28,501 nt of DNA from a virus, in the IMG/VR virus record IMGVR_UViG_3300030098_000154, positions 1 to 28,501 of that record, one strand, 5' to 3'. The notes under the pieces were generated by a model that did no database searches, was not told where the DNA came from, and worked only from the letters and a program-made list of their open reading frames with translations. This document shows, piece after piece, positions 1-28,501 of the stretch (within the stretch, counting starts at the first letter, position 1; each line of letters opens with the position of its first letter). Position numbers and translations under genes: made by a program.

Positions 1-248
1 TTATCGTTTATATCTATGCTTTGCCATTCACTTGCAAACTTGACCTTTAAGGTATCATGCATTTCATCAGGAAAATAGCCAAGTGACTCTCCTAATGGTT
101 GTACTATACAAGCCCAATAGTAATTGTTCTGCATATTGCTTCTATTGTTTCTTTGCTTTTTTACTTTAACTATATAATCTGTTTCAAGTTCTTTTAAGTA
201 ATTAAAAAGTGTTTGTTTATCTTGACTTGTATTAATCACGAAATTCAT
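1..248 (-). CDS. NinB-like recombination protein, 5' part only (cut by window edge)
   Basis: The first 82 codons of a second, diverged copy of the gene at 27974-28357. The ATG lies at 246-248 and overlaps the end of the T9SS-like gene by 17 bases. The diagnostic core RSNMQNNYYWA is unchanged. Seven residues differ from the other copy: R/Q and N/T at residues 12-13, D/E, S/T, and the ANE/GES triplet. These are mostly conservative, so both copies look functional. The missing 3' part presumably matches the other copy, so this is one gene seen twice across a circular or concatemeric join. Confidence 0.8.
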   Translation of the reverse strand, partial: MNFVINTSQDKQTLFNYLKELETDYIVKVKKQRNNRSNMQNNYYWACIVQPLGESLGYFPDEMHDTLKVKFASEWQSIDIND

Positions 249-392
249 AGTGCAGCTTTCTGTTCTTAATATAAATTTTATTTTTAGGCTCTTGTAAAAG
301 TTTTATGCCTTGCAGGTTATATATTTTTTTAGTAGGTCTTAGTGGTATTTCATTTACACCAACACTATTTGTTATTGGAAATTGAACCCACT
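1..392. repeat. Left copy of diverged terminal repeat
   Basis: This stretch aligns without any gap to 28110-28501. By hand count about 30 of 392 positions differ (about 92% identity). It spans the start of the NinB-like gene and the C-terminal end of the T9SS-like gene. Both reading frames stay open in both copies, so the differences look like natural variation rather than sequencing noise. The constant offset implies a unit of 28,109 bp. Confidence 0.9.
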
Positions 393-738
393 CTAGCCCA
401 TTAAATACAACAGTATCACACTGGTTAGTGCAAGGTATTATTGTAGTACCTGCTCCTTGCGGATTCATTATGTAAGCATTGTAACATACTTTTACTGTAT
501 CTGTAAGTTGTATTATTGGAAACGATGCAAATGCACCAATACCACTAAAACAAAAATCACTATTACAAACCCCCCAATAAACATCAACTGTGTCACAATA
601 ATTATCTAAAGAGTCTGTTGTTTCAATCGTCACGCTAAAAACACCATTCGAGTTTTCTATTACTGAATATGATATTGAGTCACACCAGTTAACTGACATT
701 TGTGTTTGCATGTATAATAATAAGTATAATAATTTCAT
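232..738 (-). CDS. Putative secreted protein with T9SS-like C-terminal sorting domain
   Basis: A 168-residue protein. It has a short hydrophobic N-terminus (residues 2-10, mostly Leu and Tyr) that could be a weak Sec signal. A cysteine-rich beta-type region follows, with seven Cys at residues 19, 48, 58, 63, 85, 103 and 107 and recurrent DT/V motifs. The last 45 residues include KIYNLQGIKLLQEPKNKIYI and resemble the type IX sorting domain of Bacteroidota secreted proteins (hydrophobic strand, DLxG-like turn, YI strand, basic end). The start overlaps the stop of the preceding gene as TAATG. Export and surface attachment by the host T9SS are inferred. It resembles no phage structural family I know, so it may be a cargo gene that alters the host surface. 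The C-terminal part is repeated at the right edge. Confidence 0.6.
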   Translation of the reverse strand: MKLLYLLLYMQTQMSVNWCDSISYSVIENSNGVFSVTIETTDSLDNYCDTVDVYWGVCNSDFCFSGIGAFASFPIIQLTDTVKVCYNAYIMNPQGAGTTIIPCTNQCDTVVFNGLEWVQFPITNSVGVNEIPLRPTKKIYNLQGIKLLQEPKNKIYIKNRKLHYEFRD

Positions 739-6784: not shown

Positions 6785-7026
6785 TGTGTAAAATCTTTAA
6801 AGTGATAGTATTCTTTTTTTAGTTTAACAAACAAGTCTATTACTTGTTCATCTAATGACCTTTCTAATAAAAATCTTTTGTGTTCAGGTTCAATACTTTT
6901 TACCAATAAAAATAAGCCATCATTAATTTTATTAAGCCATAATGGATTTTCTTCTATTACATCTAATATTGATACAATAGCTTCTTCTTTGTTTGTTGCT
7001 TCTAACATTTTAAAATTTGAGTACAT
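6772..7026 (-). CDS. First gene of the early operon, hypothetical
   Basis: An 84-residue helical protein. The start is about 20 bases downstream of the transcription start expected from the 7053-7083 promoter. An internal ATG at codon 7 is an alternative start. Residues 12-30 (NKEEAIVSILDVIEENPLWL) and 45-75 form charged helices. There is no membrane segment or cysteine cluster. Its place as first early gene would suit a host-takeover protein, but no family is recognised. Confidence 0.6.
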   Translation of the reverse strand: MYSNFKMLEATNKEEAIVSILDVIEENPLWLNKINDGLFLLVKSIEPEHKRFLLERSLDEQVIDLFVKLKKEYYHFKDFTQWNY

Positions 7027-7052
7027 CTGTTTTTGTTTTGATTAATATGATG

Positions 7053-7083
7053 CAAAGATACATATTATTTTTAATTGACACAA
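7053..7083 (-). promoter_or_regulatory. Early promoter P2, Bacteroidota type
   Basis: Read leftward: TTG at 7083-7081, a 20-bp spacer, then TATCTTTG at 7060-7053. This matches the Bacteroidota consensus TTG / TAnnTTTG with correct spacing. The expected start near 7046 gives a leader of about 20 bases before the ATG at 7026. Confidence 0.8.
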
Positions 7084-7102
7084 TTATTTACAACTTTATT
7101 TA

Positions 7103-7132
7103 CAAAGTTATTAACAATTATAGTGTTAACAA
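7103..7132 (-). promoter_or_regulatory. Early promoter P1, Bacteroidota type
   Basis: Read leftward: TTG at 7132-7130, a 19-bp spacer, then TAACTTTG at 7110-7103. It lies 50 bp upstream of P2 in the same direction, so the early operon has tandem promoters. A perfect palindrome fills its spacer. Confidence 0.7.
7111..7129. promoter_or_regulatory. Operator-like palindrome in the P1 spacer
   Basis: TTAACA, 7 bases, TGTTAA: a perfect 6-bp dyad that occupies exactly the 19 bases between the -33 and -7 boxes of P1. A bound regulator there would block polymerase. The regulator is unknown; the small HTH proteins at 1361 and 3396 are candidates. Confidence 0.45.
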
Positions 7133-7159
7133 GAAAATTAAAGAGAAATAAGTAAGACT

Positions 7160-7174
7160 ATTACTATAAGTAAT
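7160..7174. promoter_or_regulatory. Second palindrome upstream of the early promoters
   Basis: ATTACTATAAGTAAT: 6-bp arms and a 3-base centre, about 30 bp upstream of P1. It differs in sequence from the palindrome in the P1 spacer, so it may bind a different protein. The flanking 7175-7205 carries three ACTCTA-type repeats on the minus strand. In this AT-rich setting chance is possible. Confidence 0.35.
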
Positions 7175-7214
7175 AAGTAGAGTAGAGTTAGCTTTGTAGA
7201 GTCTTTTAGGTGCA

Positions 7215-7940
7215 TTATAAGGGCATTAAAAGGTTTATTGGTAGTGTACCATTGTTTAGTACTACGGAGCAGCCTATGGCTTGTTTTTTAAAGTTTTTAG
7301 CGTAAGCAGCAGCATAAGTCGTACAGTCAACCCCACAACCTACTTGCATTGCATAGATTTTATACTTTTTTCCTACGAACCACTTGCAGTATGCTTCAGT
7401 ATGAGTATGACCGCAAACGCTTGACATTAGGTTGTTCTTTGCTTTTGTTTGTGCTTGACCCCCTTCTCCATGTTCGTAAAGAACATCATCATAAACTACT
7501 GATTCTACCCAATTCCAATTAGGAGTTCCTAATACTTCGTTGTATGATTTTATCCAGGCTTTAGGAATACCGCCTGTAAAAGCCTTTCTAGAAGCTAAGC
7601 GGTCATGGTTCCCAATACAAACATCTGCAACAGGAAAGGCTTCATACCATTTAGCAACCTTTTCTATTGTCTTTTCTAACTCATAACCTGCTGACATTCC
7701 ATCAGGGTCAGGCTCATGATAACTAAAAGCATGATTATCAAGTATATCGCCAATAAAAATAACTTGGTTGCAGTTGTATGTTTCATATTGCTCTTGACAA
7801 AACTCTAAATAACCATCTAGGCAAAATGGTTCATGCAAGTCGCCAACAACTAGGATGTTCCTAGTGTCAGCTTCTCGCATCTTTTTTAATGCCGCTATTT
7901 CATGCGGCTTTAATCTAAATCTATTTGTTTGACTTTCCAA
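7215..7940 (-). CDS. Calcineurin-like metallophosphoesterase
   Basis: Up to 241 residues. All metallophosphoesterase motifs are present: GDLHE (33-37), GDILDNH (64-70), GNHDR (110-114), HGEGG (157-161) and GHTHT (177-181). These bind a di-metal centre and hydrolyse phosphoester bonds. The substrate (nucleic acid ends, cyclic nucleotides, phospholipid or cell-wall phosphate) cannot be read from sequence. The reading frame begins with TTG at 7940, inside the holin-like gene; the first ATG is at 7880 (codon 21) and keeps every motif. It is the last gene before the early control region. Confidence 0.85.
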   Translation of the reverse strand: MESQTNRFRLKPHEIAALKKMREADTRNILVVGDLHEPFCLDGYLEFCQEQYETYNCNQVIFIGDILDNHAFSYHEPDPDGMSAGYELEKTIEKVAKWYEAFPVADVCIGNHDRLASRKAFTGGIPKAWIKSYNEVLGTPNWNWVESVVYDDVLYEHGEGGQAQTKAKNNLMSSVCGHTHTEAYCKWFVGKKYKIYAMQVGCGVDCTTYAAAYAKNFKKQAIGCSVVLNNGTLPINLLMPL

Positions 7941-27929: not shown

Positions 27930-27960
27930 AATTGAAAAAGATTGATTATTCAATTCTCAT

Positions 27961-27973
27961 AATATAATAGAAA
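27961..27973 (-). promoter_or_regulatory. Late start motif, copy 5
   Basis: TTTCTATTATATT on the minus strand, between the stop of the NinB-like gene and terS, 31 bases before the preferred terS ATG. It is followed at once by a mini-frame ATGAGAATTGAATAA (4 codons) that may act as an upstream regulatory frame. Confidence 0.4.
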
Positions 27974-28357
27974 TTACTCATATTCATTTGGTAGCATTAG
28001 TCTTATGCCTAGTTCTGTTAATGCCCATATCCTTATTTGCTCTGCATATATCTCAAACTCTTTTGTGTTCATTCTTGCTGTACTGTTTACTGTTTGCAGT
28101 CCTATCTGTTTATCGTTTATATCTATGCTTTGCCATTCACTTGCAAACTTGACCTTTAAGGTATCATGCATTTCATCAGGAAAATATCCTAGCTCATTTG
28201 CTAATGGTTGTACTATACAAGCCCAGTAATAGTTATTCTGCATATTGCTTCTGTTGTTTCTTTGCTTTTTTACTTTAACTATGTAATCACTATCAAGTTC
28301 TTTTAAGTAATTAAAAAGATTCCGTTTGTCTTGACTTGTATTAATCACGAAGTTCAT
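27974..28357 (-). CDS. NinB-like recombination protein
   Basis: A 127-residue protein. The core KKQRNNRSNMQNNYYWACI then LANELGYFPDEMHDTLKVKF matches the NinB-type pattern (R-S-xx-QN-xx-YWA). Lambda NinB (Orf) is a ssDNA-binding recombination mediator that assists Red annealing. The C-terminal part (TKEFEIYAEQIRIWALTELG) is a helix pair. It lies directly upstream of terS and overlaps the cargo gene by 17 bases. A second, diverged 5' copy is at 1-248. Confidence 0.7.
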   Translation of the reverse strand: MNFVINTSQDKRNLFNYLKELDSDYIVKVKKQRNNRSNMQNNYYWACIVQPLANELGYFPDEMHDTLKVKFASEWQSIDINDKQIGLQTVNSTARMNTKEFEIYAEQIRIWALTELGIRLMLPNEYE

Positions 28358-28501
28358 AATGCAGCTTTCTGTTCTTAATATAAATCTTATTTTTAGGCTC
28401 TTTAAAAAGTTTTATGCCTTGCAGGTTATATATTTTTTTATTTAGTCTTAGTGGTATTTCATTTACACCAACACTATTTGTTATTGGAAATTGAACCCAC
28501 T
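28110..28501. repeat. Right copy of diverged terminal repeat
   Basis: Partner of 1-392. Substitutions cluster at the segment matching bases 68-92, where the NinB-like protein reads ANE here and GES in the other copy. The first 67 and the last 50 or so bases are identical. Gene order runs on across the repeat, as expected if the window holds one genome unit plus the beginning of the next. Confidence 0.9.
28341..28501 (-). CDS. T9SS-like secreted protein, C-terminal part (cut by window edge)
   Basis: The last 53 residues of a diverged copy of the gene at 232-738, ending at the TAA at 28341. It keeps the sorting-domain-like end with KIYNLQGIKLFKEPKNKIYI. Changes against the other copy are LLQ to LFK, PT to LN and a final ELRD instead of EFRD. 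The hydrophobic and basic pattern is preserved, which suggests that this end is under selection. Confidence 0.65.
   Translation of the reverse strand, partial: WVQFPITNSVGVNEIPLRLNKKIYNLQGIKLFKEPKNKIYIKNRKLHYELRD

Follow-up and report, generated by a model that had tools for sequence, protein, structure and literature searches.

The window, i.e. the whole stretch of viral DNA analysed here (28,501 bases, the full length of the record), represents a phage of ~28 kb in which PHROGs recognised the large terminase, the portal, a NinB/Orf recombination mediator and a metallophosphoesterase. Its portal is distantly related to those of the Nonlabens phages P12024S and P12024L (~31% identity). A Cys-rich protein of 168 aa is encoded on the minus strand by a single open frame (232–738, including the stop codon). 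This frame shares one base at its start with the stop of the preceding gene (738–995), and its 3' end overlaps the start of a NinB/Orf-like gene that is cut at the left end of the window (3–248); the other copy of this recombination mediator gene (27974–28357, minus strand) would be its downstream neighbour once the genome is closed. Since the Cys-rich gene overlaps both neighbouring genes, it looks like a member of an early operon; it lies among the early genes of the phage. In the related contig L001, a DNA methyltransferase gene (6874–7644) separates the NinB-like gene from the one that comes next (97–98 aa); the window phage does not have this gene (27953–27974 in the window). In another relative, L029, an HTH-like frame continues stop-free into a secreted Cys-rich protein (1286–1957), whereas a similar small ORF in the window stands alone (1361–1543).

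The sequence-only reading had assigned a diverged second copy of the Cys-rich gene. There is no second gene: the right-end stretch (28110–28501) overlaps positions 1–392 of the window (392 bp, 92.3% identity, gap-free), taking in the end of the Cys-rich gene together with the beginning of the NinB-like one, and the partial copy at the right contig end (28344–28499, minus strand, a stub of 52 residues) is the allele of another strain, 97% identical to the relatives L001 and L034 and nearer to them than to the left end. The contig of one relative (L005/L007) has an exact terminal overlap of 123 bp in the same gene, and L034 and L010 contain a single copy within the 16.5 kb examined. The simplest reading is that the window would be a closed (circular) or permuted genome, assembled past its start with the allele of a co-occurring strain. 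Since the stub is a strain allele at the contig end, it provides no independent test of tail conservation, and the retention of the C-terminal pattern in a second copy was rejected as evidence for such conservation. The 29-kb contig L034 (PBGL02000003.1), which comes from a near-identical phage, has been assigned to a MAG with the name Euryarchaeota archaeon, a placement that probably reflects binning contamination.

Three parts can be distinguished in the deduced protein, all encoded on the minus strand: 1) a short hydrophobic N-terminus (residues 1–18, nucleotides 685–738), which aligns with the Sec signal peptides of its relatives but is weaker; 2) a body containing seven Cys residues (residues 19–125, nucleotides 364–684), for which an FN3/Ig-like beta fold is predicted; and 3) a C-terminal tail resembling a short signal of the type IX secretion system, T9SS (residues 126–168, nucleotides 235–363; SVGVNEI...KIYNLQGIK...NKIYIKNRK). 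The T9SS exports proteins and attaches them to the surface of Bacteroidota cells. Six of the seven Cys residues are invariant in a 16-row family alignment. The structural model is mainly beta (pLDDT 71; 82 for the relative L027, with its body above 85), and the tail is predicted to form short strands, joined to the body by a low-confidence linker. Fold searches retrieved a generic FN3/Ig-type beta sandwich, a common arrangement with best matches at Z ~8 and no specific relative; among viral proteins, the best match (50% identity) was uncharacterised and came from an uncultured virus. No PHROG, NCBIfam or Pfam model matched the protein. The description of the product as a Cys-rich, beta-type protein with a short hydrophobic N-terminus, made from the sequence alone, thus holds. 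Within the family, this N-terminus is the weakest, with a best 9-residue hydropathy of 1.64 compared with 2.3–4.1 in complete relatives, and has no AQ cleavage site of the usual kind; since it is both short and weak, even Sec export is uncertain for the window copy. Strain variants of the gene are under purifying selection (overall dN/dS about 0.12–0.36), which argues against its simple decay.

Distribution in marine phages and Flavobacteriales

Searches of viral contigs identified close variants (88–97% identity), a 10-row phage clade (55–58%) and distant relatives (about 37–53%), on contigs of 4–95 kb. The first residues of nearly all complete family members form a clear signal peptide of the Sec type (...GLQTQAQ and ...NLNAQ are typical), and most of these peptides obey the Bacteroidota Q-rule, which predicts Gln after the cleavage site (PMC10653852). 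Two degenerate DNA patterns detected the phage-type tail at 24 loci, including two on already known contigs, and a sister tail (..DLLGR..NKLLFYIYDDGTVEKK) at 8 loci, mostly on proteins of 730–870 aa; a signal peptide was present in all the complete proteins found in this way. The first set and the pattern-found loci amount to ~40 tail-bearing marine viral contigs, a count that includes fragments and in which viral status comes from IMG/VR plus a few hallmark hits. Among 50,697 records of isolated phages, neither a relative of the Cys-rich protein nor a phage-type tail was found, and the long repeat protein had only repeat-type partial matches.

In L013 and L017, the Cys-rich member lies directly before a repeat protein of ~800 aa. 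Secreted proteins of ~730–870 aa are encoded in L013 (1786–4176), L017 (8428–10839), L178, L179, L180, L182, L183, and L186; GCTDxxxxNYDxxAN repeats occur in several of them and the sister C-terminal tail (FYIYDDGTVEKK type) in most. They are likely to be a further class of predicted T9SS cargo carried by marine phages. Two different phages encode small secreted thioredoxin-like proteins a short distance upstream of the Cys-rich gene (L013, 879–1199; L018, 7132–7536); these proteins have VPTIxIF and no CxxC motif.

Homologs of the Cys-rich protein were also identified in Flavobacteriales MAGs, one of them adjoining a protein that bears a canonical signal of type A. In the body-family tree, host rows are mixed in among phage rows, which forces at least three changes in a tree with few host rows, some of them on small contigs and possibly misbinned phage DNA like L034. 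A single host-phage transfer is not supported by this tree.

Tail matches at E 0.01 or better were found in 45 of the 148 genomes of the order of G001, and the phylum-wide sample contained the tail in 1 of 296 genomes. All 20 host proteins inspected have the tail at the extreme C-terminus and, as judged by inspection, a signal peptide at the N-terminus, and their bodies are unrelated (M43 metalloprotease, fasciclin, BNR-repeat-like, a 388-aa repeat protein, and small beta proteins). Among the M43 proteases, seven carry the short tail (11–29 bits, with the canonical HMM scoring 0 or less), whereas 21 homologs with bodies 33–54% identical carry canonical type A C-terminal domains (CTDs; 16–54 bits, with the short-tail HMM scoring 5 or less). 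By these profile scores, the short tail stands in place of the canonical T9SS signal on M43 proteases. The body of the 388-aa repeat protein was not used as a second case of exchange, its homologs being all in tail-bearing genomes.

SprA was detected in 20 of 23 host genomes, namely G001 and 19 of 22 incomplete genomes that bear the tail or a homolog; the other three of these 22 had no SprA match. TIGR04183 had 37 matches in G001 and 67 in G002. A correlation between tail and SprA across the phylum was uninformative, with one sampled genome carrying the tail. In G034:C23, the gene for a short-tail host protein (43406–43927, L072) is located ~0.8 kb from the SprA gene (44713–51753).

The C-terminal tail and T9SS sorting signals

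A profile search of the kind proposed in the sequence-only reading (TIGR04183 for type A and TIGR04131, or CHU_C, for type B sorting domains) gave no match for the window protein or for the relatives tested, and the same was true of PF18962; for TIGR04183 and PF18962, the window protein remained unmatched at E 10. TIGR04183 is a model of 72 positions, and the family tails have ~43 residues. An HMM of canonical CTDs gave no meaningful hit on the phage ORFs and did not pick out the phage proteins. When an HMM was built solely from host tails on unrelated bodies, the phage family occupied the first 22 places among 1,612 viral ORFs, with a best E of 7e-15; the window copy was last of the 22 (E 0.037), and the next, unrelated ORF had an E of 0.67. 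The resemblance of the C-terminal tails is beyond chance.

Aligned by hhalign with canonical type A CTDs, the tail profile scored 23.7, whereas none of 100 column shuffles scored above 16.5. Since this link is modest (probability 56%), the case rests on modularity and tail exchange and not on that score; the host-tail set scored 20.4, below one of 100 shuffles (20.8), and adds nothing. In a PDB sequence search, the best match of the tail profile was the arabinanase 4kca (residues 642–682 of 692, E 1.9e-7), and gingipain CTD entries (5hfs, 7pq4, and 5ag9) were among the sub-threshold matches (E 0.4–0.9). The C-terminus of 4kca chain A, an endo-1,5-alpha-L-arabinanase of known structure, may by this match be an unrecognised T9SS signal.

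Short T9SS CTDs have been described in Prevotella intermedia (Ye et al. 2025, PMC11969387); according to the authors, no other species of the phylum is reported to combine them with long CTDs. They consist of 43–55 residues with three predicted strands, are cleaved at PT/GI (cleavage sites were determined for five of them), support C-terminal glycosylation as do the long CTDs, and are characterized by three motifs: motif B contains conserved Tyr and Gly residues as well as a basic one, motif D is GxY-Ile with an invariant Gly, and motif E has a conserved basic residue (PMC11969387). This match in the literature was found after the tail tests had been done. The tails of our family likewise form the very end of proteins that start with a signal peptide (clear in the relatives, weak in the window clade), have, as in P. 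intermedia, a length of ~43 residues counted from a (P/T)-G-I/V site, and share the Tyr, Gly and basic residue of motif B, the Tyr-Ile of motif D, and the basic motif E. They differ in that motif D is often GxxYI rather than GxY-Ile, and in that they belong to marine Flavobacteriales and their phages and not to a Prevotella.

In the window protein, 42 residues extend from GVNEI to the end (mostly 39–48 in the family), within the length range of short CTDs (about 40–55). Motif B (IYNLQGIK; IYDLxGR in relatives) and the basic motif E (KNRKLHYEFR) are present. The cleavage-site motif is SV/GVNEI, with Val for Ile, most relatives having GI or SI, and motif D is NKIYI, in which Gly has been replaced as in most of the 10-row clade to which the window belongs; most other family members keep G(x)xYI. 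Because of the missing motif D glycine and the Val at the cleavage site, the window tail is classified, by its motifs, as a variant of the short T9SS CTD and not as a strict member.

Predicted export and its alternatives

Four independent lines carry the case for the tail: i) its modularity, ii) the blind recovery of the phage family by the host-tail HMM, iii) the exchange with canonical signals on proteases, and iv) the machinery, with SprA present in most of the host genomes. With the short-CTD motifs added, the sorting-signal character suggested by the sequence-only reading is well supported for the family, and its tail is probably a T9SS signal.

We propose that the Cys-rich gene would be an accessory gene of host origin in phages of marine Flavobacteriales. 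The encoded protein would be made during infection and exported by the host Sec system, with disulfides forming in the periplasm; the host T9SS, presumably through recognition by PorV/PorU, would then read the ~43-residue tail as a short CTD and move the protein across the outer membrane, with cleavage near SV/GVNEI. The protein would remain attached to the infected cell's surface or be released from it, with a putative benefit to the phage such as receptor masking against a second phage or changed adhesion. Host origin, the direction of transfer, T9SS export with recognition of the tail, and surface display with its benefit are what we infer from these comparisons, and export of the window copy is extrapolated from its relatives. 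Taken as a whole, i.e. a host-derived cargo exported by Sec and T9SS and probably located on the infected-cell surface, window copy included, this proposal is in our view reasonably likely. Counting against it, the tail and the signal peptide of the window protein are the weakest of the family, the motif D glycine is lost, and the E value of 0.037 is what this copy obtains alone. As to purpose, the protein might serve to exclude superinfection, to mask the receptor or to change adhesion, each of which would be compatible with the proposal; superinfection exclusion in particular is a tentative suggestion that we would not favour.

These same weaknesses raise the possibility that the clade of the window is a decaying or re-purposed member of a T9SS-cargo family, with a role in the periplasm or at the inner membrane, or with none. 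The poor N-terminus without its AQ site, the altered motif D and the lowest tail score of the family would all be expected of such a protein; however, its strain variants are under purifying selection, all the Cys residues are kept, the N-terminus is identical in five variants, and the rest of the 10-row clade has good signal peptides despite the common change in motif D, so that we regard decay or re-purposing as unlikely, though to be taken seriously.

Doubts of a different kind concern the whole family. The tie between tail and T9SS comes from sequence comparison, canonical models do not match the tail, and three of the 22 incomplete tail-bearing genomes have no SprA match; the tail might accordingly be a conserved C-terminal element of secreted proteins of marine Flavobacteriales serving another purpose, such as periplasmic stability or T9SS-independent retention at the outer membrane. 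That homologous proteases carry canonical T9SS CTDs at the very same position, and that the length and motifs are those of P. intermedia short CTDs with shown cleavage and C-terminal glycosylation (PMC11969387), makes this improbable. The protein could also be an Ig/FN3-like decoration of the virion or baseplate, its tail being a folding or attachment element with no role in secretion, since such folds are common on phage virions and the homolog in L006 comes after LamG-like structural genes. This we consider very improbable, given the clear Sec signal peptides of the relatives, the even number of invariant Cys residues, the host chromosomal homologs, the presence of this tail on proteases and fasciclin proteins of hosts, the position among early genes in the window, and the lack of a PHROG match.

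The statement in the sequence-only reading that no characterised phage example is known was too strong, in that phage-encoded T9SS cargo has already been predicted, although the published cases are predictions only. Cryophage is reported to encode predicted T9SS cargo said to alter host secretion, with superinfection mentioned (Bellas et al. 2020, PMC7468147). The likeness to our case lies in the phage-encoded predicted cargo; in that other phage, the sorting domains described are of type A and belong to a glycoside hydrolase, an endoglucanase and a protein with PA14 (PMC7468147), whereas here many phages encode a small Cys-rich family with short tails. ORFs of the crAss-BACON cluster with a T9SS sorting domain, reported as a prediction in an annotation remark, are likewise from Bacteroidota phages, but these are gut phages with BACON repeats (PMC6949934). 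Phages of Porphyromonas gingivalis are described as encoding Q-rule secreted proteins, with a proposed alteration of the outer membrane; the Bacteroidota-type signal peptides are shared with our family, but a T9SS tail goes unmentioned in the account given of these phages (PMC10367356). The new elements here are the class of short signals, the extent to which it is spread, and the Cys-rich family.

A broader reading is that marine Flavobacteriales phages carry sets of short-tail cargo taken from hosts, consisting of the small Cys-rich proteins and the repeat proteins of ~700–870 aa, and recoat infected cells via the host T9SS, using a short signal class missed by annotation; we consider the chances of this to be evenly balanced. 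If export as proposed is true, phages of abundant marine Bacteroidota would put their own proteins outside the infected cell through the host T9SS, and surface proteins would be more than receptors to these phages. Short T9SS signals would then extend from P. intermedia to small-genome marine Flavobacteriales, revealing a class of secreted proteins overlooked by TIGR04183. The family would also offer a concrete and testable candidate for a phage-made surface change such as superinfection exclusion, none of which has to our knowledge been characterised in this group. Finally, the clade-limited distribution of the tail, in 45 of 148 genomes of the order and 1 of 296 across the phylum, could aid host prediction for uncultured phages.
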